DNA of 50,240 bases from Omnitrophica WOR_2 bacterium RIFCSPHIGHO2_02_FULL_45_21 (GTDB lineage Bacteria > Omnitrophota > Gorgyraeia > Gygaellales > UBA12090): assembly GCA_001805575.1 (NCBI GenBank), contig MHGN01000063.1, positions 1 to 50,240 on the forward strand, in the 5' to 3' direction. The position numbers were made by a program, and so were the translations under genes. The notes under the pieces were generated by a model, which saw only the letters and a list, made by a program, of their open reading frames with translations, was not told the DNA's origin and ran no database searches. Of the stretch, positions 17,025 to 50,240 are shown piece after piece (within the stretch, counting starts at the first letter, position 1; each line of letters starts with the position of its first letter).

Positions 17025-19415
17025 ATGGCTATGGCGAGAATACGGCTTGCCCTTCTGTTGATGGGTTTTAGCTCCCTGATAATCCAGACTCTCCTCATCC
17101 GTGAATTTCTCATCAGCTTCTACGGCAACGAGCTAACCATCGGATTAATCTTAGCTAACTGGATAATCTTAGAGGCATTCGGAAGCGGCCTGATTAATCC
17201 ATTCTCCGCAAAATCAAAAAAGCCGCAGCTTGTCTACGCCCTTTTACAGGCAGCTATTGCTTTATACCTGCCAATAAGCATCTATCTTATTCGCAATGTA
17301 AAAAATATCTTAGGGCTTACCCTGGGCGAAGGGATAGGAATCCTGCCCATATTCTTCAGTTCTCTGTTTATCCTTGCGCCTTTAAGCATCCTTGACGGAG
17401 CCCAGTTTCCCTTCGGCTGCCGCATACTCTCGGACAGGGAAAAAAGTCCGCTAGAATCCGCGGGCAAAGTCTATATCTTGGAGGCAATGGGATTTATTCT
17501 GGCCGGCCCTATTTTTACCTATCTTCTGGTTACGAAACTCAATTCCTTTGCCATTGCCTTTTTATTAGGCGGGCTTAACCTATTCTCTGCCGCGGCCCTT
17601 CTTAAGAGAAAACTTTCTGATTTCTCATATAGAACTTCTTTTGTGGTTATAAGCACTTTGTTCTTCCTTAACGGATATTTCCTCCTTAACCAGGCAGAAA
17701 TCCTCCACTGGCATTCCTTGAATAAACAATGGCAGAATCAACAGGTGCTTACTTACCAAAACTCTATCTATGGCAATCTGGCAGTAACCAAGTCGGGAGA
17801 GCAATTTACCTTCTACAGCGACGGAATCCCTATTATCAGCGCTCCCCTGCCTGACATCGCCTCTAGCGAAGAATTAGTGCATTTTTCTATGCTGGCGCAT
17901 CCTAAACCCAAAAACGTCCTCTTATTAAGCGGAGGCGCAGGCGGCATTATCAAGGAAATCCTTAAACACCCGATCGATAAACTAACCTATACTGAACTTG
18001 ACCCTCTACTGATAAAACTAATTAAGGATTTCCCCACCCGGTTAACCCAGGAGGAATTAAGCGACCCGCGGCTTGAGATTAAATATATTGACGGCAGAAG
18101 ATTTCTGTTGCTTACAGAATCAAAATACGATCTGGTTATCCTTCATCTGCCAGCGCCCTCTACCTTACAATTAAACCGCTTTTATACTCAGGAATTTTTT
18201 CAAAAGGTCAAATCTATTTTGGCTGAAGACGGGTTCCTCTCTTTTGGCCTCCCGGGATCCTTAAGCTACCTCAACCCGCAATTACGTAACCTCAATGGCT
18301 CAATATTGGCTACGGCTGAAGATGTATTTGGCAGGGTAAACATCATCCCCGGAGATTTTAATCTTTATCTTGCCTCAAAAACAACTCCCCAGAAGTTAAG
18401 CCAGCAAGGCGACGGTTTGGCTTTCCCTTTAGCCAAAGCCATAAGCCAGCAAGGCAATGGTTTGGCTTTCCCTTTAGCCGCAGCCATAAGCCCGCAGGCA
18501 ATGGTGCGGCTTCCGATAGCCGCAGCCATAAGCCCGCAAGTTTTCCTTAACCGGCTTGAAGAAAGAAATATTCAGACCCAGCTTTTAAACAAATTTCATC
18601 TTGAATACCGCCTTGACCCTCGCTGGTTAGCCTGGTTTAAGGATTCCCTCGGCGATTATAAGCACATGAGAAGAAACTCTGACCTTCTGCCTTCCGGAAC
18701 CTTCTACAGCATCGCTTACTGGAACAGCGCATTTTCAAGCAGGCTGCAAGGATTATTTAACGGTTTAGACAAGCTGAATTTCTCTATAATTATGCTCTGG
18801 CTTGGACTGGCTGCTTTAGTTATATTGCTTTTAAAGAGGTTCGTTGTTAAATTGAAAAGATTCTCTATCGGATTTGCTATTACCACTACCGGTTTTATCG
18901 GAATGAGCTTTGACCTTATCTTTATCTACGCCTATCAGTCATTTTACGGCTTTGTCTTTAGCCACCTTGCCCTCTTAGTTTGCGCCTTTATGGCCGGCAT
19001 TACCTTAGGCGGCTGGATGATCACCAAAAGGCTAAACCGGATAAAGAATGATTTCATCCTCTTCTCAAGAATAGAATTAATCCTTGCGGGTTTTTGCTTA
19101 GCGGTGTGGCTGCTGCTGCAATACTTGAAATATATAAGCCTGACGGAATTCTCTTATCTTTTCTTTGTCTTAGCCGCTCTTTCGGGCTCTCTTGTGGGCC
19201 TGGAATTTCCTTTAGCAAATAAAATTTATGGGAAAGATAAAACCCACACCAAAAGCGCGGGGCTGCTCTATTGCCTTGACCTTTTTGGGGCATGGCTGGC
19301 AGCCCTGATTGTCTCAATAGCTTTTGTGCCGGTCATAGGGATAATAAAGACCTGCCTTATTTTGGCCTTCCTAAAAGCTATAAGCTTTGCCTTTGTTGTT
19401 TTATTTAAGAACTAA
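17025..19415 (+). CDS. Polytopic membrane protein with spermidine synthase-like (SpeE) domain
   Basis: N-terminal TM segments, then LLLSGGAGGIIKEILKHPIDKLTYTELDPLLIKLI, then C-terminal TM segments with LVGLEFPLANKIYG. Confidence 0.85.
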   Translation: MAMARIRLALLLMGFSSLIIQTLLIREFLISFYGNELTIGLILANWIILEAFGSGLINPFSAKSKKPQLVYALLQAAIALYLPISIYLIRNVKNILGLTLGEGIGILPIFFSSLFILAPLSILDGAQFPFGCRILSDREKSPLESAGKVYILEAMGFILAGPIFTYLLVTKLNSFAIAFLLGGLNLFSAAALLKRKLSDFSYRTSFVVISTLFFLNGYFLLNQAEILHWHSLNKQWQNQQVLTYQNSIYGNLAVTKSGEQFTFYSDGIPIISAPLPDIASSEELVHFSMLAHPKPKNVLLLSGGAGGIIKEILKHPIDKLTYTELDPLLIKLIKDFPTRLTQEELSDPRLEIKYIDGRRFLLLTESKYDLVILHLPAPSTLQLNRFYTQEFFQKVKSILAEDGFLSFGLPGSLSYLNPQLRNLNGSILATAEDVFGRVNIIPGDFNLYLASKTTPQKLSQQGDGLAFPLAKAISQQGNGLAFPLAAAISPQAMVRLPIAAAISPQVFLNRLEERNIQTQLLNKFHLEYRLDPRWLAWFKDSLGDYKHMRRNSDLLPSGTFYSIAYWNSAFSSRLQGLFNGLDKLNFSIIMLWLGLAALVILLLKRFVVKLKRFSIGFAITTTGFIGMSFDLIFIYAYQSFYGFVFSHLALLVCAFMAGITLGGWMITKRLNRIKNDFILFSRIELILAGFCLAVWLLLQYLKYISLTEFSYLFFVLAALSGSLVGLEFPLANKIYGKDKTHTKSAGLLYCLDLFGAWLAALIVSIAFVPVIGIIKTCLILAFLKAISFAFVVLFKN
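18397..18540 (+). repeat. Intragenic tandem repeat, two 45-bp units, one 42-bp variant unit, one partial unit
   Basis: Units begin TAAGCCAGCAAGGC / TAAGCCAGCAAGGC / TAAGCCCGCAGG / TAAGCCCGCAAG; encodes SQQGDGLAFPLAKAI-SQQGNGLAFPLAAAI-SPQAMVRLPIAAAI-SPQ. Confidence 0.9.
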
Positions 19416-32477: not shown

Positions 32478-33340
32478 TCCGAAATGGACTTCCTCCCGCC
32501 CCGGTCGCCACTGGCGCCGTTCCAGACACTAAAGGCACAGAGTTTATTCTTCTCTGCTTGCCCCGCCGTTGGCGGGGCCTGTTCTAAATTAGCATCAACT
32601 TCCGGATCAGTGATAGCGATAGCGCGTTTAAATACCACCTGCCAGGTATTATCCGACCAAAAGCCTCTTCCCTGCACATTCTGAAGCTCTTTGGGGGTAA
32701 GAGTACCTACCCTAATGGCAATCAGGTCATTCACTGCCGATTTAGAAATGTCTTTAGAAACTACAAAAATCTCCTTTTCTTCAAACGGGTAATGATAATC
32801 CGCATAAACTTTTGTCTGCATCAGCTCATCGGTTGCGCCGGCCTTTTCCTGGCTCAACCAATACTCCCTATCCCGGCTTGCCTTCCAGTACCAGATATTG
32901 GACTTATGCATAAAACCCATCATAATAGTCGAGGCAGGTATGCCTTCTCCCATGGGGAACATCACCGCGCAGCCATCGGAAAAGGTATTGATTCCCGCAT
33001 CCCTATCCTCTGTATCGTCCTTCCAGCTGATGTAGAAATAGATATCTTTTTTATTGTGAAAGGCGCTTACTCTAAGCGGCGAAACCAAACTCTTGCCCCA
33101 GGGAAGCACAGTAACTTGCTGCATCAGCTCTATTTCTTCTCTGGGAAGGGATTGCCATATATCAGATACGCTAGCGGAAACATCGATTTCCTTATCTAGA
33201 AATTGAACCTCTAAAGTTACCTTCTTTGGCTTTTCAACTCTAACCGGAACTCCCCGAGAATGCCTTATTCCTATATAAACCAGCGCCGCGAACCCAATTA
33301 CCAATGCTATAGATATTAAGATAACGGTGGATTTTTTCAT
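32453..33340 (-). CDS. EbdC/SerC-like heme-binding gamma subunit of type II molybdoenzyme
   Basis: N-terminal anchor; VSAFHNKKDIYFYISWKDDTED; DGCAVMFPMGEG; HKSNIWYWKASRD; WQVVFKRAI. Confidence 0.8.
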   Translation of the reverse strand: MKKSTVILISIALVIGFAALVYIGIRHSRGVPVRVEKPKKVTLEVQFLDKEIDVSASVSDIWQSLPREEIELMQQVTVLPWGKSLVSPLRVSAFHNKKDIYFYISWKDDTEDRDAGINTFSDGCAVMFPMGEGIPASTIMMGFMHKSNIWYWKASRDREYWLSQEKAGATDELMQTKVYADYHYPFEEKEIFVVSKDISKSAVNDLIAIRVGTLTPKELQNVQGRGFWSDNTWQVVFKRAIAITDPEVDANLEQAPPTAGQAEKNKLCAFSVWNGASGDRGGRKSISDWVELQIK

Positions 33341-34002: not shown

Positions 34003-35122
34003 ATTCCTTGCGGATATAAATCGGCTCTTTCAGGGGAACCTTTACAATTTCCTTGCCCTGTTCATCATAGCCGGTAACAGAACCTTTCTCTATATCGCCT
34101 TCAACCTTAAAAGAGCGGGTAATCTTATCGGTAGAGCCCATGAGCATTAAAATCCCAATCAGCTTTTTATCCAGAGAGGCGCGGCGGTAATATTCTACCG
34201 CCTTCAGCGCCCCGGGGCCAAAGAGCTGAAGATTAAATTTATCCGGAACATTGATAGGAGGAATGTAATAGACATTAGGCTCTAAGCCGAATTGAGGATA
34301 CAAAGGAAGGGCAACTTTTTTAATATGGATAAGATAATCAAAGGGGTTATCTTCCCTTGCCTCATCGTATCTGCTCTTAAAACCAAAGAGCCGGATTTTG
34401 CCGATGCAATTGATCACGCACTGGGTCTGAATTCTTTCTTTGGCCGGGCTGTTTCCTTCTACACCCGGATAGCAGGCAATACATTTTTCCGATTTTCCGG
34501 TTAATTCCCTGAAAAAGGTTTTCTTATACGGACAGGCTTTTATACATTCCTGATATCCGCGGCATCTTTTCTGGTCAATCAAAACAATTCCGTCTTCTTC
34601 TCTCTTATAGATTGCCTTTCTGGAACAAGCGGCGACACAGGCCGGATAGGTGCAGTGATTACAGATTCTCTGCAAATAAAACATCCAGGGCTGATGGGGA
34701 ATCTTGATATAATCCTTATCCTTGATTGCGCTGCTTACCTCATCCTCTCCGAGATTGGGATAGAGATAATCATTTTCCTCGGGGTGCCAGCCTAAAACCT
34801 CTTCACCAAAGCCGGCTGATTCAAATATGGTTTTACCTTTGTACTTCCAGCCGCTCCAATCTTGCGGCCCTAACTTTTCCAAAAGCCGTACATCCCAGCC
34901 CAGAGGATAAAATCCCCAGGGCTTGGTCTCAACGTTGTTCCACCACATATATTCCTGGCCCTTGCCGGCGGTCCAGGCATTCTTACAGGCAAAGGTGCAG
35001 GTTTGGCAGGCAATGCATTTATTGGTATCAAAAATCCAGGCCGCCTGCTTTTTGGGTCGGCTCTCGGGATATTTATACTCCATTTTCCGATTGAGCTGCC
35101 AGTTATAAACCTTGTGGCTCAT
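33962..35122 (-). CDS. NarH/NxrB-like 4Fe-4S beta subunit
   Basis: WIFDTNKCIACQTCTFACKNAWTAGKGQEYMWWNNVETKPWGFYP; CNHCTYPACVAAC; CRGYQECIKACPYKK. Confidence 0.92.
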   Translation of the reverse strand: MSHKVYNWQLNRKMEYKYPESRPKKQAAWIFDTNKCIACQTCTFACKNAWTAGKGQEYMWWNNVETKPWGFYPLGWDVRLLEKLGPQDWSGWKYKGKTIFESAGFGEEVLGWHPEENDYLYPNLGEDEVSSAIKDKDYIKIPHQPWMFYLQRICNHCTYPACVAACSRKAIYKREEDGIVLIDQKRCRGYQECIKACPYKKTFFRELTGKSEKCIACYPGVEGNSPAKERIQTQCVINCIGKIRLFGFKSRYDEAREDNPFDYLIHIKKVALPLYPQFGLEPNVYYIPPINVPDKFNLQLFGPGALKAVEYYRRASLDKKLIGILMLMGSTDKITRSFKVEGDIEKGSVTGYDEQGKEIVKVPLKEPIYIRKEFDEERNVRRFSVT

Positions 35123-38100
35123 TTAACGAATTCTCCTCCCAGGAACTTCTTCATTGCCACATTCTCATACGACGGCCTAAAGCCCATTTTTGCCGGGCGC
35201 CAGAGTTTATTGCCATTAGTTCCCCCGTCTTCAGCTTTACTGACTTTGACAAATGACTCTTTCGGAGCGCCGGTGGTGCAGTGAACATCCGGAGCAAATC
35301 CTTTTCCAATCACCTGGCCAAAATACTCTTTTCTGGCTAAAGAATCGGTCATCAACGTAGGCCTAAGCCAGGCGCGGGTTGTGGACTGGTGCGAGCCATA
35401 CCTGAACATTGCCTGATAGCCGGTGCGGGAGTTTCTGGCTAATTTATCCGGGTTGGTTTCATGGCCTTCAACCGAACCATAAGTTGCCACATACATATTA
35501 AACCAGGAGCGGGCAACACCGCGCATGATTCCTAAATAATAACGGCAGCGCATCATTGCCCGATGCACCTTATAATCTTCGCCTTTTTTCTGCCAGCCGC
35601 GAAAAGGCCTATCCTCCGGGTCAGCATCTACCCAGACGTAATCTCCGTCTTCAATGCCTAACTCCTTGGCGTCAGCCGGATTGATATCAACATAGCCCTC
35701 GCCAACCCATGGTGAACGGTTATCCTTTCTATAGGGATCGCCAAAGGGGCCAAACCATAAAGAAAGCAGGTCAATATCTACCGGGGTGGTATGCGCGCCA
35801 TGGCGGTATTTGGGAGTTATATAAATGAGAGTAAAGCCGTCTTTTCTGCGGGGATGAACGGTCTTGGTAACCTCTCGCGGGCTGATTACCACATTACGCA
35901 CCTGGCGCACTTCTACCGACAGGTCATCTTTGGATAAACCGTAGCTTTCCGGGCCTTTAGGCCTGATTAAATCCTTAGCCCCGCAGACAATGGTATTGGG
36001 CTCATAAAAGGTAGCGTCCACCGGTTCGCGGTGCACCGGGATATTTTCGCCATGCTCAATAAATTCGTCTTCATCGCGATAAAATTCCAAACGGCCTGAC
36101 TTTGTATAATGCGGCTTATTTTCATTGCTCTGCTCCCAGCCCATAATCTTAGGATAGGTGCGGGTCATCAAAAGCGCCGGGATTCCTTCTTTGGCATTCT
36201 TTTCTAACTCTTCAATGTTGTATCCTTTCAGGGCGGTGGAAGCATCAATGATCCTCTGTAAATAAACCTCTAACTTATTGTCGTAGACAAACTTCCAATA
36301 ATCCTCAAATCTGGTATCCCCGGTTTCTTTGCTCAATGCCTTGGCCACTCCGGCAAACGTCTCTATATCTGCCCGGGTATCATGCAATCTCTCTAAAGGC
36401 GTGCGGGGATAAATCTGTAAAAATGGGTTGGTCACTGCCGCGGTCATATCCGGATATTTAAATTCTGCCCAGGAATCCACGGCAAAAACCACATCCGCGT
36501 ATTCGCAGGAAGCAGACCACCACCACTCATTCACTATCACGCATTCTATCCTGGGAAGAGTATTCACCACAAAATCGTGGTGCCACTTGAGGTTGCCTAA
36601 GATAGAATTGGAATTGCCGAACCAGAGAAATTTTGTCGGCGTGGAGATATGGGTTTTTCCGGTAAAAAGCTTATTGCCTACCCGCAAGGGCCTGTCGCCA
36701 TAGTTATAATAATGCGCGGATTCCATTTTGTAATATGCTTTCGCGCGCACCGGCTTTTGAGGGTCTAATTCAATATCAAAAGGGTCCTCGGTAATGTAAG
36801 TCGGCAGGCCGTTAAAATAGGCGCCGCGGTAATTGCCGGCAAAACTGCCGATATTGCCGCCATGATAACCGATATTTTTTGTCAAGGCGCAGACCAAAAA
36901 TATAGCCCGGTCTTTTAAGTCGTTGTTGAAAAAGTGATTCGGCCCCATTCCTACAGCGATAAGCACCTTGGATTTATTCGCGGCAATTTCTCTGGCTAAG
37001 CTTACTACCGCCTCTTTGCTGATATGGCAGATATCGCTGACCACCTCAGGGGTAAAATGCGAAGCATGCTCTTTCATTAAATCAAATACTGTTCTGACCT
37101 TTACCTTCTTGCCGTCAATGGTATCAACCTCAAACTCACCCTCTAAGGCAAAATCTTTGACTGCGCCGTAATCATCGCGGCTGATAACTACCACTTCATT
37201 CTTCTTCCCATCCCAGGCAACAAAATCGCTCCATTCATTGCGCAGTTTCTCTGTTACAATCTGTAAGTTCTGTTTTATCGACGGCGGGGGTTTTTCTCCT
37301 TCTTTAAGCACCTGGGTATTTTTTAATTCTTTTGGCTGGTAATCTTTAATCATATCCTGGGGTTTCAATAACTTCAGGGTATCCATCCTTACTAAAAGCG
37401 GTAAATCAGTTTGACCCTTCGCAAACTCATCATCGTAAAGCTTCTCCCCGATGATAAGATTCGCTATTCCTAAAGCAAGGGCGGTATCACTTCCCGGACG
37501 GATTAAAATAACCTCTTCTGCCTTATGGGAGGTTGCCTGGTATTCGCAGGCAATTGTGATAACCCTTGTTCCTTTGGCCCTGGCTTCGGATAGCCAGTGC
37601 GCGTCGGGCATTTTGGTGGCAATCCAGTTCATTCCCCAGTTGATGGCAACCTTGCAGTTTTCTACCGTGGCTAAGTCAAAATCGATGGTCTGCTGTCCGC
37701 AGACCATCGGATGTCCTGGCGGCAGGTCGGTATGCCAGGAATAGTTATCCCATCCTCTTGCCCCCAAGGCGTCGTTCTTATCCACACCCCTGATTTTTTC
37801 ATCTAAAAGGGCGGCAGAATTAGCGAAACGATAAAAACCAAAAAGGCGGGTTGCCCCTAAAAGGGGCATTCCGCCTCTGAATTTTAATACTTGAGTTCCC
37901 GCGCCCTTAGTTGCCTCAACCATTGCCTCATCATAGCCCTGGGCCTTGAGCAATTCTTTTCCCTTATCGCCAGAGTAAGTTGTGGCAATGTTAATCATGC
38001 TCTGCGCAACAATCTGAGATGCCTCTTCAAAGGAAACCCTGACAAAAGGCTCTTTCCCGCGGTTAAGATATTCGCCGGGTATACTGCCGTTTGGATTTCT

Positions 38101-38544
38101 GGGAAAACCGGCATTGCGCCACTCTAAGAATCCCTTACGCACACTGGGATATTTTACCCGGCGCGGGCCGTAAACTTTACGCACCATTGCCAAACCTTTC
38201 TGGCACAGGCGCGGATCCCATCTATGCGAGGCCTGATTTCCATAGATATCTTTGGCTTTGCCATAGCCGTAACTAGGGCCTATCTTGGTAACTACGCCAT
38301 TTTTTACGTAGGCCCTAAGCAGGCAGTTATGGGTATCATTGGGAGCGCAGAGAAAATGAAAGGTAGAATCATAGCGGAACTGGTCGCGGTATATCTTTTC
38401 CCAGTTTCTATCCGGATAATAGTCCAGGGGATTGTCAATCTCGGGGACAAATTTTAAAGCCGCAAGCAATGGCCTGCTTGCGGCTAATCCCGCAATGGTA
38501 GCTGCGGATACTTTTAAAAACTCTCTGCGGGTGATTCTTTTCAT
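35119..38544 (-). CDS. NarG/NxrA-like type II DMSO-reductase family alpha subunit
   Basis: Start placed at MKRITRREFLKVSAATIAG (Tat; listed ORF begins 38595); FHFLCAPNDTHNCLLRAYVKNGVV; RLCQKGLAMVRKVYGPRRVKYP; strong NarH-like partner. Confidence 0.88.
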   Translation of the reverse strand: MKRITRREFLKVSAATIAGLAASRPLLAALKFVPEIDNPLDYYPDRNWEKIYRDQFRYDSTFHFLCAPNDTHNCLLRAYVKNGVVTKIGPSYGYGKAKDIYGNQASHRWDPRLCQKGLAMVRKVYGPRRVKYPSVRKGFLEWRNAGFPRNPNGSIPGEYLNRGKEPFVRVSFEEASQIVAQSMINIATTYSGDKGKELLKAQGYDEAMVEATKGAGTQVLKFRGGMPLLGATRLFGFYRFANSAALLDEKIRGVDKNDALGARGWDNYSWHTDLPPGHPMVCGQQTIDFDLATVENCKVAINWGMNWIATKMPDAHWLSEARAKGTRVITIACEYQATSHKAEEVILIRPGSDTALALGIANLIIGEKLYDDEFAKGQTDLPLLVRMDTLKLLKPQDMIKDYQPKELKNTQVLKEGEKPPPSIKQNLQIVTEKLRNEWSDFVAWDGKKNEVVVISRDDYGAVKDFALEGEFEVDTIDGKKVKVRTVFDLMKEHASHFTPEVVSDICHISKEAVVSLAREIAANKSKVLIAVGMGPNHFFNNDLKDRAIFLVCALTKNIGYHGGNIGSFAGNYRGAYFNGLPTYITEDPFDIELDPQKPVRAKAYYKMESAHYYNYGDRPLRVGNKLFTGKTHISTPTKFLWFGNSNSILGNLKWHHDFVVNTLPRIECVIVNEWWWSASCEYADVVFAVDSWAEFKYPDMTAAVTNPFLQIYPRTPLERLHDTRADIETFAGVAKALSKETGDTRFEDYWKFVYDNKLEVYLQRIIDASTALKGYNIEELEKNAKEGIPALLMTRTYPKIMGWEQSNENKPHYTKSGRLEFYRDEDEFIEHGENIPVHREPVDATFYEPNTIVCGAKDLIRPKGPESYGLSKDDLSVEVRQVRNVVISPREVTKTVHPRRKDGFTLIYITPKYRHGAHTTPVDIDLLSLWFGPFGDPYRKDNRSPWVGEGYVDINPADAKELGIEDGDYVWVDADPEDRPFRGWQKKGEDYKVHRAMMRCRYYLGIMRGVARSWFNMYVATYGSVEGHETNPDKLARNSRTGYQAMFRYGSHQSTTRAWLRPTLMTDSLARKEYFGQVIGKGFAPDVHCTTGAPKESFVKVSKAEDGGTNGNKLWRPAKMGFRPSYENVAMKKFLGGEFVK

Positions 38545-38605
38545 TCCTCTTTCGTAGCTGCAGAAATTATCTTTATGATGACAAATTTGGCGCACTTGTC
38601 CTAAA

Positions 38606-40775: not shown

Positions 40776-41453
40776 TTAAGAAAGAGTTTTCTGCCTGCTA
40801 AATAAAACTATTAAAACAGTGAATGATAGGATCATTAAAACTAACTCAATTGGCTCTCTGAGGAACCCAGCCCGGCCGAATAATTGGACATCTTCCCAGG
40901 CCTCTATCGCTAATATTCCGATAATAGTCAATATGAGAGAAACGGATTCCTTCTTTACCCAGGATAATTTCAGGCACAGGCGCCCTGGTAAACTCAACAA
41001 ACCCTTAAGGCGGGGAAAACATCTCGGCGTGCTTTGAGAATATGCCGCGTATTCTTCCTTAAACCTCTTTAATAACAAGGCCTCTTCTTTTTTAATCTGC
41101 GGTATGTAAATCAAGAGGAAGATAATAATAAACGGAAAAATTACCCATAACTGCAGGAGGGTGAAGATAACCCCTATCCCGATTAATAATGTCCCGAAAT
41201 ACATCGGATTTCTCACGGCAGTATAAGGGCCGTGCGTAACCAGATTCCTGCCTTGAGAGGACTGCTCTTCTTTGTATCCTCTCGCTGAAATACGAAATAA
41301 AAACCCGCATAAGACCAAAGCTATTCCCAGGCAATCGAATAATTTATCAAGTGACTTTCCCTGCCATTGGGCTAAAAGTATTTTATAGAAAAAAATGACC
41401 AGGAGAAACGAAACGAAGATTAATAACCCCTGGATTCTGATGCGTTTTTTCAT
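40776..41453 (-). CDS. ICMT/PEMT-family membrane methyltransferase
   Basis: LVTHGPYTAVRNPMYFGTLLIGIGV; KKEEALLLKRFKEEYAAYSQSTPRCFP. Confidence 0.85.
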   Translation of the reverse strand: MKKRIRIQGLLIFVSFLLVIFFYKILLAQWQGKSLDKLFDCLGIALVLCGFLFRISARGYKEEQSSQGRNLVTHGPYTAVRNPMYFGTLLIGIGVIFTLLQLWVIFPFIIIFLLIYIPQIKKEEALLLKRFKEEYAAYSQSTPRCFPRLKGLLSLPGRLCLKLSWVKKESVSLILTIIGILAIEAWEDVQLFGRAGFLREPIELVLMILSFTVLIVLFSRQKTLS

Positions 41454-41456
41454 TTT

Positions 41457-42524
41457 TCAAGTTTGCGGCTGATAAATGCAATACGGCTCTTCTTCCTGAA
41501 AATCTCCGCTGCGCCAATAGGCGCGGGCGCGGCAGCCGCCGCAGACCAGCTTAAACTCACAGGCACCACATCTTCCTTTTAATTTTGCGCTATCCCTTAA
41601 GTCCTGAAAAAGTTTGCTCTCAAACCAGACGCTTTTAAAATCCTCTTTTCTTAAATCCCCGGCCTTAACCGGCAGGTAGCCGCATCCGAATACCTCTCCT
41701 TTATAAGAAACAAAACAAACCCCCTGCCCGGCCAGGCAACCCTTGGTGATGGCGCTAAAATTATCGCTCGCGCAAGGCAATTTCTTTTTCTCTTTTGCCA
41801 AACGTTGGCGCAAGACCCGGTAATAGTGCGGGGCGCAGGTCGCCTTTACCCGTATGGTGGAATGGGACTGAAAATCATACAGGCGGTTGAATGCCTCTTC
41901 GTATTCCTGCGCTGAAATCTCATCCCCTTCCAATGATTTTCCTCTGCCTACCGGAACCAGAAAAAATACATGATAGGAAACTGCGCCCTGTTTAAGCGCA
42001 AAGTTACCCATTGCCTCCAATTCAGCTAAATTCTTTTTGGTTATCGTAGTGTTTATTTGCAGAGGTATTCCTGCCTTTTTAAGATTATTGATTCCGGCTA
42101 AGCTCTTTTCAAATGCTCCCGGCGCTCCGCAAAAATTATCATGGCTTTTAGCATTTGAACCATAAATAGACACCGCAACTAATGCGGTTTTATTCTCCTT
42201 TAAGCGCATCGCGCTATCTAAGCTTACCAGCGAGCCATTAGTGGCCAGGGTGCTCTTTAGGCCTAATTGGCTGGCATAGTGGATAAGTTCGTAGATATCT
42301 TCGCGTAATAATGCCTCTCCGCCTGAAAATACAACGATCGGTTTTGAAAAAGATGCGGCTGTCTTTAGAAATCTTTTGGCTTCTTGGGTAGTTAGTTCTT
42401 CCGGCGAGCGCTTCTTCTCTGCCTTGGCCCGGCAGTGCGGGCATTCTAAGTTACAGGCGCGCGTGGCCTCCCAGAATATCAAACGAAGACTTGAGCTCAT
42501 TGTATATTTTGCCGGATGCGTCAA
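41457..42524 (-). CDS. Radical SAM/SPASM protein, AhbC/AhbD/NirJ-like
   Basis: EATRACNLECPHCRA; FSGGEALLREDIYELI; GAVSYHVFFLVPVGRG; C-terminal CGACEFKLVCGGCRARAYWRSGDFQEEEPYC. Confidence 0.85.
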   Translation of the reverse strand: MTHPAKYTMSSSLRLIFWEATRACNLECPHCRAKAEKKRSPEELTTQEAKRFLKTAASFSKPIVVFSGGEALLREDIYELIHYASQLGLKSTLATNGSLVSLDSAMRLKENKTALVAVSIYGSNAKSHDNFCGAPGAFEKSLAGINNLKKAGIPLQINTTITKKNLAELEAMGNFALKQGAVSYHVFFLVPVGRGKSLEGDEISAQEYEEAFNRLYDFQSHSTIRVKATCAPHYYRVLRQRLAKEKKKLPCASDNFSAITKGCLAGQGVCFVSYKGEVFGCGYLPVKAGDLRKEDFKSVWFESKLFQDLRDSAKLKGRCGACEFKLVCGGCRARAYWRSGDFQEEEPYCIYQPQT

Positions 42525-43462
42525 GAAATCAGGAACGCTAAACCTAAAAGAATTCCAAAGGTGAGGGTTAAGGCAATGCTCAAGGCATTTGCCGGAAGGA
42601 GCTTCTCTACTTCATTGTAATTCTTTAAAGCAATCCTGCAGGCCCTGAAGGCTAAGATAAGGGTAAAAAATACAATTGCTGCGGATTTCGGCAGGATATT
42701 TTTTGTGAGCAGAATAAAAGTAAAAAGATAAATCAGCGCGAGCAGGGCCGCATAGGTATAACTTGCTCTTTTCTTTCCCAGGCGCACCACCCAGTTGGTT
42801 TTGCCGGTAACCTTGTCTGCCTCGTAGTCGGGAATTTCATTGAGCCACAAAACGCTTCCGGCCAAAAGCCCCATCAGGCAGCCAATAAGAATAATTTCCA
42901 AATCCACGCTCTGCGCCTGGACATAATAGACGCCGCTTAACATTATCGGCCCAAAGGCAATGGCTACGGATAATTCTCCCAACCCCTTTTTAGAAAGATT
43001 GATTTTAGGATGGATATAGCCTACCGCCAGAAAAACCCCGCTTACTCCCAGCGCTAATACCGGCAAGCCTCTCAAAAAAGCCAAATACACCCCGATCATT
43101 GAACCGATGGCAATAAATACAGTCCCTCCTAAAAGTAAGGATTTTGGGCTGAGGGCTCCCTCTTGAATCACCCGGGAACCTCCGCTAAAAGGGGTAGGGG
43201 TAAGATTTATATTATCCGTTCCGGAGAGATAATCAAAATAATCGTTGAGTGAGCTGGTGCCAAAATGGATAAGCACTAAACCCATTGCCGAAAGCAGCCA
43301 TAGGCCAAAGTCAAGCGCGCCTTTTCTTTGATAGACAATTGCCCCGCCTAAGAAAGAAACTGCCACGGTTAAGGCAATAAACGGCGGGCCTAAGACCCTC
43401 AACCAGGCCCTTACCCAGGCGGTAGGCGAGCGTGAAATAAGCTGACGGATTTTGACCGGCAT
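42521..43462 (-). CDS. UbiA-family prenyltransferase (MenA-like)
   Basis: NDYFDYLSGTDNINLTPTPFSGGSRVIQEGALSP; NEIPDYEADKVTGKTNWVVRLG; 8-9 TM. Confidence 0.88.
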   Translation of the reverse strand: MPVKIRQLISRSPTAWVRAWLRVLGPPFIALTVAVSFLGGAIVYQRKGALDFGLWLLSAMGLVLIHFGTSSLNDYFDYLSGTDNINLTPTPFSGGSRVIQEGALSPKSLLLGGTVFIAIGSMIGVYLAFLRGLPVLALGVSGVFLAVGYIHPKINLSKKGLGELSVAIAFGPIMLSGVYYVQAQSVDLEIILIGCLMGLLAGSVLWLNEIPDYEADKVTGKTNWVVRLGKKRASYTYAALLALIYLFTFILLTKNILPKSAAIVFFTLILAFRACRIALKNYNEVEKLLPANALSIALTLTFGILLGLAFLIS

Positions 43463-43535
43463 TCAAGTGTGCAGGTGAAAAATGTTACTCTAATTATTCT
43501 GTGTAACGTTTAATCTGAGCTTTTAAATGGAAATA

Positions 43536-43712
43536 TTAGAATAAAGTAGATACTATATAGCTGTCTTTTTTCTTCATTGCCGGAGACACACCCACTGCTG
43601 TTTTCAGGGTAAACTCCTCCATTGAGGCGGTCCTGGGGCAGAGATAATTCTTTAATCCCTTTTCCTTAAGGCCTCCTCTTGTTCCTGTAGGTTCAGATTT
43701 TCTTTTTGACAT
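43536..43712 (-). CDS. Candidate RiPP-type precursor peptide, 58 aa (below the ORF-track length cutoff)
   Basis: Manual translation MSKRKSEPTGTRGGLKEKGLKNYLCPRTASMEEFTLKTAVGVSPAMKKKDSYIVSTLF; upstream AAAGAAAGGAGCGGAAAAATG gives a strong Shine-Dalgarno; 26 bp after the PqqD-like gene. Confidence 0.72.
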   Translation of the reverse strand: MSKRKSEPTGTRGGLKEKGLKNYLCPRTASMEEFTLKTAVGVSPAMKKKDSYIVSTLF

Positions 43713-43738
43713 TTTTCCGCTCCTTTCTTTAACTCCGT

Positions 43739-44113
43739 TTAGAATTTCACGATACCTTTCTTAAAAAAATACCCCACCTGTTTTTTTACATCATCTAAAA
43801 TTCTTGCGTAATTTTTCCGCTTAAATTCCTTAGCCAGTAATTGAGCGATACCGAGAAGAGAATTCCTGCCGTTACAGAGCAAGAATATCCTGGCTGCGCT
43901 GAAATTAAGAATTAAGGGAAGAGCGAAATCTTCTTTGGAAAGGATAACAATCTGCTCGCGCTCGCCATCCTTTCTCCAACTTAAGCCCCCCGCCTTCTTC
44001 GGCTTGCGGCTGCGGCTAGCGCCCCGCCTACGGCGGGGTGGCTTATGGCTGCGGCTAGCTGAAGCCGCACCATTGCCCTCTGGCTTATTGGCAGTGGATA
44101 TTCTCTGAAACAT
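43739..44113 (-). CDS. PqqD-like peptide chaperone with Arg-rich repeat-derived insertion
   Basis: LILNFSAARIFLLCNGRNSLLGIAQLLAKEFKRKNYARILDDVKKQVGYFFKKGIVKF. Confidence 0.8.
   Translation of the reverse strand: MFQRISTANKPEGNGAASASRSHKPPRRRRGASRSRKPKKAGGLSWRKDGEREQIVILSKEDFALPLILNFSAARIFLLCNGRNSLLGIAQLLAKEFKRKNYARILDDVKKQVGYFFKKGIVKF
43991..44077 (-). repeat. GC-rich palindromic repeat inside the PqqD-like CDS
   Basis: Direct repeat GGCTTGCGGCTGCGGCTAGC / GGCTTATGGCTGCGGCTAGC flanking CCCCGCC-TAC-GGCGGGG; shares GGCAATGGTGCGGCTTC..TAGCCGCAGCCATAAGCC with 18.5 kb. Confidence 0.85.
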
Positions 44114-45113
44114 AGGGCACCGTTTTATGCTTGATAAGGTCTGACATCATATTCAAGCTGTTAATAAACTCAATTACCTCAGGCCTATGCCAGCCCTCTC
44201 TTAAGAAATGATTCCAGATATACTCAAGTTTCTGGCTCTTTAAATCCCCATAGGTAAAGGGAAGCAGGAGGTCTAAACGACAGGCCCCCTGGGGCGTAAT
44301 AATACACCAGATATTTGGAGGAGCGCTCCTTGTTTTAACATATGTCTTTAAAGTTTCCTTTTCCCGGGAAGGGGCAATAATAGTCAATTTATCGGTGTAG
44401 ATTTTGGCTGCCTCATCTAACAAAGCATAAAATTCCACATACTCTTCTGGCCCCAGTTTAATCTGCTCAAAATTCTTCACTGCCCTTCCGGTCAAAACCA
44501 GCATATCGGTAACAAAATATTCTAAACCCATTTCCACGCATAATCCGATAACGCCTTTGACATCGCGGAAATTTATTCTCGTAGGGACAAAGGAAAGGTG
44601 GGTGCGGATGTTATTTTGTTTTAAATAGCGGATTGCGGCAACGGACTTCTCCCAGCTTCCGCTGAGCCCCCTTACTTTATCGTGGACGCCAGGGCTTGCT
44701 CCGTCAATACTAATCTGCACCCATTTGACTTTTAAATCCGCTAATTTCCCGGCGGCATTGCGGTCAATCTGCGTCCCATTGGTAATCAGCCCTACTTGAA
44801 TCTTTTTTTGGCGCAGCCGCTCAATAAGAACCGGCCAATCCTCTCGTAAAAGAGCTTCGCCTCCGGTAAGGTAAACCTCAAAGACCTTCATTTTGGCTAA
44901 TTGCTCAATAATATTCAGCGCTTCTTTGGTAGTTAATTCATTTTCGCTCTTCTGGTTGGAATTATAATAACAGTGGACGCAGGAAAGATTACAGCGATCA
45001 GTCAGCTCCCACAAAGTAAATACCGGCGCCTTAAAATACTTGGGCAATAAGCCGTCTTTGTAGAGGCGGTTTATCCTTCCTTGATACTGGGTTAAGAAAC
45101 TCGCTCTTTCCAT
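44085..45113 (-). CDS. PqqE/MftC-like radical SAM protein with reduced SPASM region
   Basis: LTDRCNLSCVHCYYNSN; VYLTGGEALLREDW; QISIDGASPGVHDKVRG; C-terminal WCIITPQGACRLDLLLPFTYGDL. Confidence 0.9.
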   Translation of the reverse strand: MERASFLTQYQGRINRLYKDGLLPKYFKAPVFTLWELTDRCNLSCVHCYYNSNQKSENELTTKEALNIIEQLAKMKVFEVYLTGGEALLREDWPVLIERLRQKKIQVGLITNGTQIDRNAAGKLADLKVKWVQISIDGASPGVHDKVRGLSGSWEKSVAAIRYLKQNNIRTHLSFVPTRINFRDVKGVIGLCVEMGLEYFVTDMLVLTGRAVKNFEQIKLGPEEYVEFYALLDEAAKIYTDKLTIIAPSREKETLKTYVKTRSAPPNIWCIITPQGACRLDLLLPFTYGDLKSQKLEYIWNHFLREGWHRPEVIEFINSLNMMSDLIKHKTVPYVSENIHCQ

Positions 45114-46099
45114 ACGTTTGCCTCAGGCGTCAGGTCTACCAGGTCCAAAAGCGCCTTACGGTATTGTGAATCGGATAAGCTCTTTAGCCTGTCTCTTGCC
45201 GAGTTAAGATAAGATAGGGTGATTTTCTTAGTGCGGCTGATGGCATCAGAATTACTCAACTCTACTTTTATTTTTTTAAAGCAGCCATTGGTTTTTGACT
45301 TAAGTAAACTTTCTAAGCGATACCTCTTGTTTTTACTTGAAAACTTCAGCAAGTCTAACAGCGGCAAAGTCATCTCGCCCACCGCGATATCCTGGCCGGG
45401 CGACTTTCCCAATCTTGACTTTGGCGCGGCTATATCAAGGTAATCGTCAATAATCTGAAAGGCGACTCCAAAGTTTAAACCGTATGCCTTTAGCGCGTTT
45501 TGCAGAGGACGTGGAGAATCGGATAAAATTGCTCCTGCCTGGCAGGAGGCAGCAAAAAGGCTGGCGGTCTTTTTCTTCACAATCATAATATAGCGCTCTT
45601 TAAGCAGGGAAAAATTATCCCTCTCCACCACCTGGGTAAGCTCGCCTTCACACATACTTTTGGTGGCTGAGCTGATACAATCCAGGATATCCGTATTATT
45701 GCAGGTTGCGATTAACTTAAAAGCCAAGGAATAAAGATAATCCCCCAAAGCAATTGAAACATCTGCTCCCCAGCGGGAATTTACCGTGGGGTTATTATGG
45801 CGAAGGAGAGAATGGTCAATGACATCATCGTGAATGAGCGAGGCCATATGGATAAGTTCGATAGCGCAGGCAAGATTAATTAACTGCCGGCTGATAACTT
45901 CCGGGCTCCTGCCGACTGTGGCTTTGGCAGAAAGAATGAGCATTGCCGGCCTGAGCCTTTTGCCCGGGGACTTTAAGAGAAAACGATTGAGCTTAAGGAT
46001 GGACTCGTTTTTTGTTTCCTTAAGCGATACTTCCAGGACCTTTTCAACCTGGTCAAGCTCTCTTCTAATAGGTTTATAAATCTCTTTTAGCCGCATCAA
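45092..46099 (-). CDS. Trans-polyprenyl diphosphate synthase
   Basis: GKRLRPAMLIL; LIHDDVIDHSLLRHNNPTVN; GDYLYSLAF; FQIIDDYLDI. Confidence 0.92.
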   Translation of the reverse strand: MMRLKEIYKPIRRELDQVEKVLEVSLKETKNESILKLNRFLLKSPGKRLRPAMLILSAKATVGRSPEVISRQLINLACAIELIHMASLIHDDVIDHSLLRHNNPTVNSRWGADVSIALGDYLYSLAFKLIATCNNTDILDCISSATKSMCEGELTQVVERDNFSLLKERYIMIVKKKTASLFAASCQAGAILSDSPRPLQNALKAYGLNFGVAFQIIDDYLDIAAPKSRLGKSPGQDIAVGEMTLPLLDLLKFSSKNKRYRLESLLKSKTNGCFKKIKVELSNSDAISRTKKITLSYLNSARDRLKSLSDSQYRKALLDLVDLTPEANVWKERVS

Positions 46100-47184
46100 A
46101 ATTTATCGTAGTAGATGTGTATGTCCTGGACGCCTTTTTTGGCCAAGACCTTAAGCGCCGCATCAATCATCGGGGGAGGGCCGCAGAGATAGGCCTCAGT
46201 ATCCCCGTTAGAATGCATATGCCGCTCAACTGCCTGGGTGACAAATCCGGTCTCACCACTCCATTTATCATCCGGCTTGGGCTCGGATAAAACCGGAAAA
46301 TAGCTAAATCTGCCGGAGGACTCTCCTTCCAGCGCCATTAATTCCTCGGTATAGAAAAGGTCTTTTTTGCTTCTTGCCCCAAAGAAGTAACTTGCCTTAC
46401 GCGGCATCCCTTTTTCTCTTAAGTGATAGAGTATGGAACGAATGGGCGCCATGCCGCATCCGCCGCCAATGCAGACTATCTCACGTTCTGAATCTTCTCT
46501 TAAATAAAAATCTCCGTAGGGCCCGGTTACGATTATTTCATCTTGAACATCTAGAACCTCATGAATATAGCTTGAGCATAGCCCGCCGGGAACAAGGCGC
46601 ACAATGAGCTCTAAAATATTCTTCTGCGAAGGAGGCGAGGCAATAGAATAAGCCCTGAACTCTTCAATCTCAGGAATCCTGAATTGGATATACTGGCCCG
46701 GCTTAAAATTAATTTCATTAGGCTCTGATAATTGCATTACCACATACTTGATGTCACTGGTAACATCGGTAATCCGCAATATCCTGGTTTTGTATTCCTT
46801 TGCCTGCAATAAATCCTCGGAAATCAAAACCTCAATATCATTTTTTACCTTGACCTGGCAGGCTAAGCGAATGCCCTTAAGCCTCTCTTCACGGTTGACG
46901 AAAACCTCTTCCGTAGGCAGGATGTGGCCAGCGCCGCTCAATACCTCCACCTTGCAATAGCCGCAGGTTGCCTTTCCGCCGCAGGCAGAAGGAATAAAAA
47001 TCTTGTTTTGAGCGAAATAGCTTAAGAGGCTGTCGCCCCCGTTTACCGCGATGATTTTTTCCTTATTAATGGTAATCTTACATTCGCCATAGGTAACTAA
47101 TAAGCGCTCGGCAATAATGAGCACGATAGCGATGACTAACAAAATTCCATTCATTAAAAACACGGGTAATATTGTATGCAACAT
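46096..47184 (-). CDS. nqrF: Na+-translocating NADH:quinone oxidoreductase subunit F
   Basis: N-terminal TM; 2Fe-2S CGGKATCGYCKV...RLACQ; RAYSIASPP; GGCGMAPIRSIL; terminal YYDKF. Confidence 0.93.
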   Translation of the reverse strand: MLHTILPVFLMNGILLVIAIVLIIAERLLVTYGECKITINKEKIIAVNGGDSLLSYFAQNKIFIPSACGGKATCGYCKVEVLSGAGHILPTEEVFVNREERLKGIRLACQVKVKNDIEVLISEDLLQAKEYKTRILRITDVTSDIKYVVMQLSEPNEINFKPGQYIQFRIPEIEEFRAYSIASPPSQKNILELIVRLVPGGLCSSYIHEVLDVQDEIIVTGPYGDFYLREDSEREIVCIGGGCGMAPIRSILYHLREKGMPRKASYFFGARSKKDLFYTEELMALEGESSGRFSYFPVLSEPKPDDKWSGETGFVTQAVERHMHSNGDTEAYLCGPPPMIDAALKVLAKKGVQDIHIYYDKF

Positions 47185-47186
47185 AT

Positions 47187-47795
47187 TTACTGAAGGGTTA
47201 TAATCCCGGCAAAGCCCATAAAGGCAAGGGCCATTAAACCGGCAATAATCATCGTAATCCCGGGGCCGCGCAGGCCCGGCGGAATATCAGCGCTTAGCAT
47301 CATCTTTTCTTTTATTGCCGCCATAAGAATAATGGCCAATGCCCAGCCGACTGATGTGCCGAATGAATAAAGGACGGTCTGGATAAAATTGTAACTGCGC
47401 ACCACCATAAATAAGCAGACCGCCAGGACAATACAGTTAACCGTAATCAAGGGCAAGAAAATTCCAAAGGATGCCTGAAGCGGCGGGAAGAACTTCTCAA
47501 TGAGCATTTCCAGAAACTGGACCGTGGCCGCGATAACAATGATAAAAATAAGAAAGGATAAAATATCGGAATGCATTGGCACCAACAGCTTCCAGTATAT
47601 CGGCCAGTTAATGATCGCGGTTAAGGTTACCACAAAAACGATTGAAACACCCATACCGAGGGCGGTCTTGTAATTACGCGAGATAACGATAAACGGGCAC
47701 ATCCCCAGGATATAAACCAGGGCGATGTTATGGGTAAAGATTGAGGCGATTAAAATAGTCAGGGGGTTCATCAGATTCCATTCTACTGGATTCAT
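47187..47795 (-). CDS. nqrE: NQR subunit E
   Basis: HNIALVYILGMCPFIVISRNYKTALGMG; position in nqr operon. Confidence 0.9.
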   Translation of the reverse strand: MNPVEWNLMNPLTILIASIFTHNIALVYILGMCPFIVISRNYKTALGMGVSIVFVVTLTAIINWPIYWKLLVPMHSDILSFLIFIIVIAATVQFLEMLIEKFFPPLQASFGIFLPLITVNCIVLAVCLFMVVRSYNFIQTVLYSFGTSVGWALAIILMAAIKEKMMLSADIPPGLRGPGITMIIAGLMALAFMGFAGIITLQ

Positions 47796-47798
47796 CTT

Positions 47799-48428
47799 CT
47801 ACTCCGTCTTCTTGGCAATGGTTCTAAAAATCCATAAATAAACGCCTAAGAGAAAAAACGCGCCCGGGGCAATAGTCAAGATTGACCAGTTCATCCAGGC
47901 CTGCGGCATTACCTTTAACCCAAAGAGTGTGCCAAAGCCCATGGGTTCTCTAATAAGCGCCATTAAGAGCAGCATAAAGCTATAGCCGATACCACATCCT
48001 GCGCCGTCAAGAAAAGACATCCACGGCCCGTTTTTAATCGCGAACGCTTCCGCCCTGCCCATAAGAATACAGTTGGTAATAATCAGGCCTACATAGGGGC
48101 CCATTGACTCGCTTATCGGCGGGAAATACGCCTTCAGCACCCTGTCCACACAGATAACAAAGGTAGAGATAATCACCATATAGGCAAGCATTCTCACCCT
48201 GGAGGGTATAGCATTGCGAAAGAAAGAAACGAATAAAGAGCTAAAGGCGGTGCAGAAGGTAACCCCGATACCCATAGCAATGGCGTTATCCATTTTATTG
48301 GTAACTGCCAGCATTGAGCAAATGCCTAAGACCATACAAAAGGTAGGATGATCATTCCACATCCCTGTGCTAAGGACCTTAAACCATTTGCTCTGCCTGA
48401 AACTTCTTTTAATCTGCTTCTTGGGCAT
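47799..48428 (-). CDS. nqrD: NQR subunit D
   Basis: DHPTFCMVLGICSMLAVTNKMDNAIAMGIGVTFC; YVGLIITNCILMGRAEAFA. Confidence 0.92.
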   Translation of the reverse strand: MPKKQIKRSFRQSKWFKVLSTGMWNDHPTFCMVLGICSMLAVTNKMDNAIAMGIGVTFCTAFSSLFVSFFRNAIPSRVRMLAYMVIISTFVICVDRVLKAYFPPISESMGPYVGLIITNCILMGRAEAFAIKNGPWMSFLDGAGCGIGYSFMLLLMALIREPMGFGTLFGLKVMPQAWMNWSILTIAPGAFFLLGVYLWIFRTIAKKTE

Positions 48429-48436
48429 TCCTTATC

Positions 48437-49012
48437 TTAACTTTTCAGTAAACTCAGATTCTTCTCAATACTTTCGTTCAATAATTTCTCTAACGCCCTA
48501 CTGGTGCCGGTAGCGCCGGTAATCGCGTCTACCTCATTATTTGCCCTGGCATGCCCCTGCGCCGTAAAGATTAATCTGGGAATAACTTCTTTATTTTTAA
48601 ACTGGCCTAAATATTCTTTTTCTACTATCCTCGCCCCCAGGCCGGGAGTTTCCTCCTGATGCAGGATTTTAATCGTGCGGATTGTCTTAAGGTCGGAATT
48701 GATGCTAGCTATGCCGCGTATCGGCCCCCACAGGCCGGGGCCTTCGAATTTGAAAGCCACCGCCCCGTCAGCTCCTCTGTAGAAGGCATATTTGTCTTTT
48801 TGCAGGACTTCCACGTTTTGCTCAAATAATCCCAGGACCGCTTCCTTACTGCCATAGGGAACCTCCAGGGCATCAAGAATTGATGATTTTAATTTCAGTT
48901 CTTCGTTCTTTTTAATCTGCGGCTCGGTAATCTTACTCAAACCCACTAACATTATGCCTGAGACCGTGCCCATAACGATGACAAAGATTATAATTCTCAA
49001 CGCGGCTTTCAT
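48437..49012 (-). CDS. nqrC: NQR subunit C
   Basis: FMN-binding domain with DAITGATGTSRAL flavinylation-type motif; GLWGPIRGI; ETPGLGARI. Confidence 0.92.
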   Translation of the reverse strand: MKAALRIIIFVIVMGTVSGIMLVGLSKITEPQIKKNEELKLKSSILDALEVPYGSKEAVLGLFEQNVEVLQKDKYAFYRGADGAVAFKFEGPGLWGPIRGIASINSDLKTIRTIKILHQEETPGLGARIVEKEYLGQFKNKEVIPRLIFTAQGHARANNEVDAITGATGTSRALEKLLNESIEKNLSLLKS

Positions 49013-49022
49013 TTTTCCTTAT

Positions 49023-50093
49023 TTATTTCTTCAGCGCGGGATATTTTACATCTAAGACCAGGTGGTCAATCAAAGGCGCGAAGACATTCAGAAGCAATAT
49101 ACTAAACATAACTCCCTCTGTGTATCCGGATAAACCCCGAATCAAAACCACCAAAAATCCGAACATAATGCCGCCCAGCCATTTGCCGGCTTTGGTAAAG
49201 GGACAGGTAACCGGGTCAGTAAGCATAAAGAATGTTCCCAGCAGCAATCCTCCGTTTAAGATTTGAAACAGAGGCGGGGCAAATTTTTGCGCGGCAAAAA
49301 GATTGCCTAAGAATGAAAAAAATAATACCGATAAAATAGCGGCAAGCGGAAGCCGCCAATTGCTGACTTTGGCTAAAATCAGGAATAAACCGCCTAAGAT
49401 AATTCCGATACGAAAGGTCTCGCCGATACAACCTAAAGAATTACCCAAAAATAAATCTAAGTAACCGGTGAACAACTTCTCGTTCTTAAACAGGGCCAGC
49501 GGCGTTGCCTGGGTGGTGGCATCAGCGGAAAATTTTAAAAAACCGCCTAAGCCCTGATGAAAAGGCTGGCTCCAGGAAACCGTCATGCCTTGAGGAAAAG
49601 CAACGCTGAGGAAAATTCTACCCACAATTGCCGCGTTAAAGACATTTCTTCCGGTTCCGCCAAAGGCCTCCTTGCCAAAAATCACTCCAAACATCACTCC
49701 CACTGCCACCATCCACAAAGGCACTGTTGGCGGCAGAATCAAAGGAAATATCAAACCGGTAACTAAGAAGCCTTCGTGAATTTCTTTTTTTCTAACCACC
49801 GCGAAGGCAACCTCTACCAGCCCGCCGAATATATAGGAAACGGCAATAACCAATAAAACCCTCAAGCCCCATAAATAGACAGCGGCAATAGTGGCCGGCA
49901 AGAGGCCGATTACCACAAAGCTCATAAAGCGCTTGATATCAATATGGTCAACGATGTGCGGTAAAGCGGTAACCTGAGCCGTGCCAAAGAAGAACTCATC
50001 CGTGGCATTAATTACCGGCTTAAAGCGCTTAAGAAGCTTATTTTGCTCACTTAACTTATTAAGATTTTCAAATATGTCTCTTAAAAACTTCAT
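49023..50093 (-). CDS. nqrB: NQR subunit B
   Basis: TTQATPLALF flavinylation-type motif; GKEAFGGTGRNVFNAAIVGRIFL; LTDPVTCPFTKAGKWLGGIMFG; start set at ATG 50093. Confidence 0.92.
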   Translation of the reverse strand: MKFLRDIFENLNKLSEQNKLLKRFKPVINATDEFFFGTAQVTALPHIVDHIDIKRFMSFVVIGLLPATIAAVYLWGLRVLLVIAVSYIFGGLVEVAFAVVRKKEIHEGFLVTGLIFPLILPPTVPLWMVAVGVMFGVIFGKEAFGGTGRNVFNAAIVGRIFLSVAFPQGMTVSWSQPFHQGLGGFLKFSADATTQATPLALFKNEKLFTGYLDLFLGNSLGCIGETFRIGIILGGLFLILAKVSNWRLPLAAILSVLFFSFLGNLFAAQKFAPPLFQILNGGLLLGTFFMLTDPVTCPFTKAGKWLGGIMFGFLVVLIRGLSGYTEGVMFSILLLNVFAPLIDHLVLDVKYPALKK

Positions 50094-50095
50094 CC

Positions 50096-50240
50096 TCAAT
50101 ACACCTCTTTTGCTCCCCGGTATTCTTCAATGCCTCTTATATTATCAAAGTAGGGCAGGATACACTGGTTGCGGTCACAGCCCTGGATAGTCAACTTTTC
50201 CTGGCCTTCCTTAATATATTTAGCTAAGGGAATCTTGGAG
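50096..50240 (-). CDS. nqrA: NQR subunit A, C-terminal fragment
   Basis: Manual translation SKIPLAKYIKEGQEKLTIQGCDRNQCILPYFDNIRGIEEYRGAKEVY-stop; immediately upstream of nqrB. Confidence 0.55.
   Translation of the reverse strand, partial: SKIPLAKYIKEGQEKLTIQGCDRNQCILPYFDNIRGIEEYRGAKEVY

Follow-up and report, generated by a model that had tools for sequence, protein, structure and literature searches.

A peptide, PqqD, radical SAM and UbiA gene cassette beside NQR genes in Omnitrophota: a candidate ribosomal-peptide route to a prenylated redox carrier

Gene layout of the NQR-linked locus

The window analysed here is the whole of contig C63 (MHGN01000063.1; 50,240 nucleotides) from the genome of Omnitrophica WOR_2 bacterium RIFCSPHIGHO2_02_FULL_45_21 (1.31 Mb, 90% complete). 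We investigated a gene cassette at 42521-46099(-), which runs from a gene for a long-chain polyprenyl diphosphate synthase (PPS) to one for a UbiA prenyltransferase, directly after nqrBCDEF, and encloses genes for a radical SAM enzyme, a PqqD-like protein and a 58-aa peptide. The minus-strand order is nqrB, nqrC, nqrD, nqrE, nqrF, PPS, radical SAM, PqqD-like, the 58-aa open reading frame (ORF), UbiA, a second radical SAM gene and an ICMT-like gene. The overlaps are 4 bp between nqrF and the PPS gene, 22 bp between the PPS and radical SAM genes and 29 bp between the radical SAM and pqqD genes; the peptide gene follows after 26 bp and the UbiA gene after a further 73 bp, an interval with no significant predicted fold (z 0.16). 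The UbiA gene in turn overlaps the second radical SAM gene by 4 bp, and 3 bp separate the latter from the ICMT-like gene. All of these positions, overlaps and gaps, and the strand, agreed with a preliminary description of this DNA, and its family calls for PPS, the first radical SAM enzyme and UbiA were borne out by Pfam and NCBIfam.

NqrF (46096-47184(-)) scored above its curated cut-off, and NqrB to NqrE had NQR (Na+-translocating NADH:quinone oxidoreductase) models as best matches, all below cut-off. The five genes (nqrF, E, D, C and B; 46096-50099(-)) appear to encode a divergent NQR-like complex, the likely user of the cassette product. No nqrA was seen upstream before the contig end; an NqrA-like gene is present in relatives. 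NqrB of the window (49023-50099) and of relatives is about 360 aa long, shorter than the model for NqrB, with a match that begins only at about position 120; this may bear on the quinone used.

The PPS (45092-46099(-); Pfam E 6e-67) is 67% identical to the PPS behind nqrF in genome G003. UbiA (42521-43462(-)) matched PF01040 (5e-28) and kept both Asp-rich motifs, NDYFDYLSGTD and NEIPDYEAD, as expected of the UbiA superfamily. It is MenA-like (NCBIfam MenA 4e-39) and fell below the MenA equivalog cut-offs, with 134.8 bits for the best model (cut-off 264) and 89.7 bits for TIGR00751 (cut-off 102).

Precursor peptides, maturation proteins and cassette distribution

The 58-aa ORF (43536-43712(-)) has AGGAG, a ribosome-binding site, just ahead of its ATG. 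A peptide of this kind (type A) was found in two genomes, that of the window and G158 (L061:9602-9781(-)), with the common pattern SMExFxLKTAVGVSPAxKKxxxYIVSTLF. Over the last 37 codons the two genes have 10 identical codons, 15 synonymous and 12 non-synonymous changes. We take the ORF to be a real gene because of its ribosome-binding site and because the orthologue keeps LKTAVGVSPA and YIVSTLF with synonymous changes. No further type-A members occurred among 174 relatives of G158, which yielded only already-known type-B loci.

Type-B loci were collected in one scan of GTDB genomes with an alignment of the type-B radical SAM enzyme, giving 33 true loci and one unrelated match. Their labels, as deposited, are Omnitrophota, Planctomycetota, Lentisphaerae and Elusimicrobia, with single metagenome-assembled genomes (MAGs) of Nitrospinota, Deltaproteobacteria, Bacillota and Ktedonobacter; all are MAGs. 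Every type-B locus that contig ends leave intact keeps the order PqqD, radical SAM, UbiA, often with overlapping genes. The peptide precedes PqqD in 28 of the 33; the other five contigs start inside the cassette or no more than about 250 bases from pqqD. The preliminary description was to fall if homologous loci had UbiA unlinked from the radical SAM, PqqD and peptide genes; in type-B loci they are linked, with the peptide in 28.

The C-terminus MAQPYIRFT was identical in all 28 recovered type-B peptides, and its codons varied, up to five per residue, as one would expect of the precursor of a cofactor and not of an antibiotic. In the type-B leader W, P, V and S are invariant, and most peptides read W-x-x-P-x-L-E-D-V-S; the type-A leader of the window carries Y23-L-C-P26. 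Both types therefore have a Y/W-x-x-P leader motif and a Tyr-Ile near the C-terminus. YxxPxL is a leader motif of lasso precursors (PMC10368454), and YxxP is listed among the recognition motifs of RiPP (ribosomally synthesized and post-translationally modified peptide) recognition elements, or RREs (PMC12710340). The peptides matched no Pfam or NCBIfam family above cut-off, the sole weak match being a lasso peptide leader (E 0.06). Conserved precursors encoded beside the enzymes, 28 of type B and two of type A, with synonymous codon variation, are what a RiPP system calls for.

Three residues had been put forward as the source of the group to be prenylated. Cys25 dropped out as a conserved core residue, being Ser in the G158 orthologue. 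Tyr23 sits in the YxxP motif, so it is probably a leader residue, to judge from the sequence, and was set aside as the head-group source; Tyr52 is the better candidate.

The first radical SAM protein, a predicted peptide maturase (44085-45113(-); Pfam 2.5e-29), has the motif CNLSCVHC and beyond it no SPASM cysteine set. Its best NCBIfam match was MftC (TIGR03962), at 140 bits where the cut-off is 265, it gave 103 bits with the PqqE equivalog (cut-off 381), and its predicted fold best matched SkfB and PqqE. Cassette enzymes of types A and B grouped in a single clade (SH-aLRT 98) that excluded AhbC and AhbD. Wherever the contig permits, the nearest homologues of the window enzyme are encoded alongside PqqD, UbiA and a short ORF. 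In a Planctomycetota MAG the cassette radical SAM gene is duplicated in tandem (L163:511-2565).

These results bear on the dullest explanation, that unrelated genes merely share an operon, with a non-coding short ORF and a radical SAM enzyme for heme or another cofactor. The missing family match of the ORF and the second radical SAM gene, probably for a heme enzyme (see below), speak for it, but it is contradicted by a peptide with synonymous variation and by conserved synteny, and the cassette radical SAM enzyme is a separate clade; we hold it to be very improbable.

The PqqD-like protein (43739-44113(-)), a predicted RRE or peptide chaperone, matched PqqD weakly in the window (E 9e-4 in Pfam, 8e-6 in NCBIfam) and on its own fell below the Pfam cut-off. 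Its type-B counterparts reached 1e-12 to 1e-13 and exceeded the PF05402 cut-off. The family profile, run against the PDB, matched only PqqD/RRE and lasso B1 chains, and the predicted fold of the window protein, of low confidence, best matched PqqD (3g2b; probability 0.99, E 0.23). An RRE domain is thus indicated by the type-B PF05402 matches together with profile and fold matches to PqqD/B1. PqqD-type genes of G193 and G135 were considered as further cassettes and discarded, as their neighbours differ.

The N-terminal part of the window pqqD contains an in-frame, palindromic repeat-like insert (about 43985-44075(-); fold z -3.65). Its core palindrome recurs at 32561-32577, and its flanking unit CCGCAGCCATAAGCC recurs in a tandem array at 18397-18540. 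This recurrence of both parts, seen at the sequence level, suggests a mobile repeat able to sit inside genes.

Linkage to respiratory genes and quinone supply

Linkage of the cassette to nqr, as seen in the window, recurred in Omnitrophota and Planctomycetota. The nqr genes lie immediately upstream of the type-B cassette in five loci, L148 (Omnitrophota), L158 and L162 (Planctomycetota), and L155 and L157, from MAGs close to them in sequence. In L174 (Lentisphaeria) an NqrF gene comes after UbiA, PPS follows UbiA in five type-B loci, and genes for NrfD and an Fe-S protein lie downstream of the L162 cassette. Besides the cassette itself, recurrent neighbours were mainly two-component regulators, NQR and PPS; PqqB, PqqC and PqqF were not seen among the genes next to the cassette. 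Genes for a histidine kinase and a response regulator are found repeatedly next to nqr and cassette loci (L148:8886-10495, L101:8551-9891 and L162:9275-10642) and possibly encode a redox-sensing regulator. One Omnitrophota genome, JAUYCX, has two type-B cassettes, L148 after nqr and L149 behind a gene for a flavoprotein that resembles the gamma subunit of hydrogenase/AsrB.

Quinone supply was assessed with MenB and MqnA/D as the only menaquinone markers, and the ubiquinone pathway was not searched. MenB exceeded its cut-off in none of 34 cassette genomes, and MqnA/D was found in one (a single PF02621 match, among 26 further type-B genomes). In the window genome the cassette UbiA was the single UbiA found, MqnA/D was not found, and the MenB search gave only a weak crotonase-type match, so the standard menaquinone route that might have claimed this UbiA did not turn up. 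The cassette UbiA was the only one found in G000, G034, G276 and G351. G003, G005 and G006, which belong to the same family as the window genome, carry NQR, PPS and AhbD genes in one operon (identity to the window 80-82% for NqrF, 61-67% for PPS and 68-69% for AhbD), but no cassette separates PPS from AhbD. All three carry MenB, which in G003 and G005 lies with MenA in men operons.

In the UbiA tree the window protein grouped with UbiA of a third kind, type C (support 84). Type-C genes sit in the NqrA-F-UbiA-PPS operons of further Omnitrophota and, in G158, next to those for complex I. The type-A UbiA occupies an operon region that is held elsewhere by its nearest relative.

We lean, with some reserve, towards the reading that peptide, PqqD-like protein, radical SAM enzyme, UbiA and PPS form a RiPP route to a prenylated membrane redox carrier that replaces menaquinone. 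This reading is based on the conservation of peptide, PqqD, radical SAM and UbiA in 33 type-B loci and two type-A genomes, on the same-family genomes that have NQR-PPS-AhbD without the cassette and carry MenB, and on the nqr genes adjoining five type-B cassettes together with the lack of MenB over cut-off in cassette genomes. It also draws on the invariant peptide core with its varied codons, on the single radical SAM clade with a fold like those of the RiPP maturases SkfB and PqqE, and on the Asp motifs and operon position of UbiA. The fuller claim, that a head group excised from a ribosomal peptide, modified by the radical SAM enzyme and prenylated by UbiA, yields a lipoquinone or quinone-like carrier by a route besides the Men, futalosine and ubiquinone-type pathways, and that this carrier takes the place of menaquinone in uncultured members of Omnitrophota, Planctomycetota, Lentisphaerae and Elusimicrobia, we regard as evenly poised. 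The cofactor cassette of the preliminary description thus stands in its linked peptide, radical SAM, PqqD and UbiA genes and its recurrence with nqr, and falls in the roles that it gave to the second radical SAM enzyme, the ICMT-like protein, Cys25 and Tyr23.

Several observations weigh against this RiPP route. Type-C genomes (G028, G025, G412, G329 and others; loci L103, L104, L137, L141, L143, L144 and L145, Omnitrophota) have NqrA-F-UbiA-PPS without PqqD or the cassette radical SAM gene, so UbiA beside NQR needs no peptide genes there and UbiA linkage alone proves nothing. MenB and MqnA/D were not found in these genomes either; another head-group source, or scavenging, must therefore exist. 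G158, which has a type-A cassette, gave no NqrB match and encodes another UbiA, of type C, next to its complex I genes. Among 384 genomes of the phylum, MenB (35), MqnA/D (74) and the cassette (8) gave lists without overlap, but this exclusion is weak because 109 of the 384 have MenB or MqnA/D, and eight genomes would escape both by chance at about 7%. MAGs are incomplete, and most type-B loci are not adjacent to nqr.

The type-C operons, the two UbiA types of G158 and a survey of Omnitrophota in which over half of the genomes in two classes had a prenyltransferase, without chorismate-pyruvate lyase (PMC10066038), would all suit a division of labour. A scavenged or unknown head group would then be turned into a conventional lipoquinone by UbiA and PPS, as in type-C genomes, while the trio of peptide, PqqD and radical SAM would make a separate redox cofactor, like PQQ or mycofactocin, for a partner enzyme, the two sets being merely co-regulated. 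Against such a split, UbiA is never parted from the trio across the type-B loci of several phyla, often with overlapping genes, no other gene recurs as widely, and in G000, G034, G276 and G351 there is no UbiA other than that of the cassette. We consider it quite unlikely.

The loci away from nqr, the G158 cassette beside metal-efflux and iron-uptake-like genes, and the position of UbiA, which comes after the radical SAM gene wherever a type-B contig is long enough, could instead mean that UbiA prenylates the modified peptide itself, yielding a membrane-anchored or secreted lipopeptide, signal or cell-envelope factor and not an electron carrier. However, no exporter or protease was among the genes that recur next to the cassette, the core does not vary from phylum to phylum, unlike those of signals and antibiotics, UbiA is MenA-like and in type A nearest to the UbiA of respiratory operons, and linkage to nqr occurs in two phyla. 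Such a prenylated peptide appears unlikely.

In the RiPP route to a redox carrier, the PqqD-like protein would bind the peptide leader at the W/YxxP motif, as motif and fold suggest, and would present the C-terminal core to the radical SAM enzyme, which would modify it, with the conserved Tyr-Ile or its surroundings as the likeliest site. A protease would free either the modified core or just the aromatic part of it, and the MenA-like UbiA, judging from family and gene order, would attach to the freed group the chain made by PPS. Given the linkage and the missing menaquinone markers, the product may carry electrons for Na+-NQR, NrfD-type and other quinone-linked enzymes.

The first steps resemble those of PQQ (PqqA, PqqD and PqqE), which likewise start from a ribosomal precursor and use a PqqD-type chaperone and a radical SAM maturase, with the same redox-cofactor logic and with PqqE among the best fold matches; unlike PQQ, the cassette has a radical SAM enzyme without SPASM cysteines and a different precursor core, and it adds UbiA and PPS. 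Mycofactocin (MftA, MftB and MftC) likewise has a short conserved C-terminal core with Tyr, a PqqD-family chaperone and a radical SAM enzyme. MftC has auxiliary cluster cysteines, and its pathway yields a soluble, glycosylated product, whereas the cassette enzyme is below the MftC cut-off, its core differs and its product is probably prenylated. With lasso leader recognition (B1/PqqD, YxxPxL) the cassette shares the W/YxxP motif and a PqqD/B1-type RRE, but no lasso cyclase or peptidase was seen and the core is not of lasso type. The Men and futalosine pathways also tie a MenA-like UbiA and a polyprenyl synthase to respiratory genes; in the cassette the head group would derive from a peptide. 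To our knowledge, respiratory lipoquinone head groups of known biosynthesis derive from small molecules, either chorismate or those of the tyrosine type. The joining of RiPP steps to a lipid prenyltransferase is without precedent in the literature searched, and by the PqqE and MftC scores the enzyme belongs to neither known system. No paper was found on UbiA with a RiPP and a radical SAM enzyme or on MAQPYIRFT, in a search that left out most subscription journals and preprints and is weak for that reason.

The two menaquinone pathways have been reported to be mutually exclusive (PMC13386864), and the head-group source in Omnitrophota has been called unclear (PMC10066038), a gap on which a peptide route, if true, would bear. 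A peptide-encoded head group would then join ribosomal peptide chemistry to core energy metabolism. The MAQPYIRFT peptide with PqqD, radical SAM and UbiA genes is a specific genetic marker of the cassette.

Neighbouring genes outside the cassette

The second radical SAM gene (41457-42524(-)) probably encodes an AhbD-like heme b synthase with a SPASM domain (TIGR04545, 466 bits, E 6e-140; below the cut-off of 500) and forms a clade with AhbD of AhbC-AhbD operons. We assign it to heme synthesis because an AhbC-like gene lies on contig C51 of G000 with hemA-, hemC- and cobA/hemD-like genes (these three named from their sequence starts) and because AhbD follows PPS in the cassette-free relatives G003, G005 and G006. 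It was accordingly dropped as a peptide maturase and as part of the pathway. The ICMT/PEMT-like membrane methyltransferase gene (40776-41453(-); Pfam PEMT 1e-8), once thought to supply a methylation step, is not among the recurrent neighbours of cassette loci and was rejected as a conserved step of the pathway.

Farther along the window, a molybdoenzyme is encoded at 35119-38595, with Fe-S, delta and ethylbenzene-dehydrogenase-type subunits. A molybdoenzyme large subunit with 77% identity (L143:1057-4485) lies directly after NQR-UbiA-PPS in G412.

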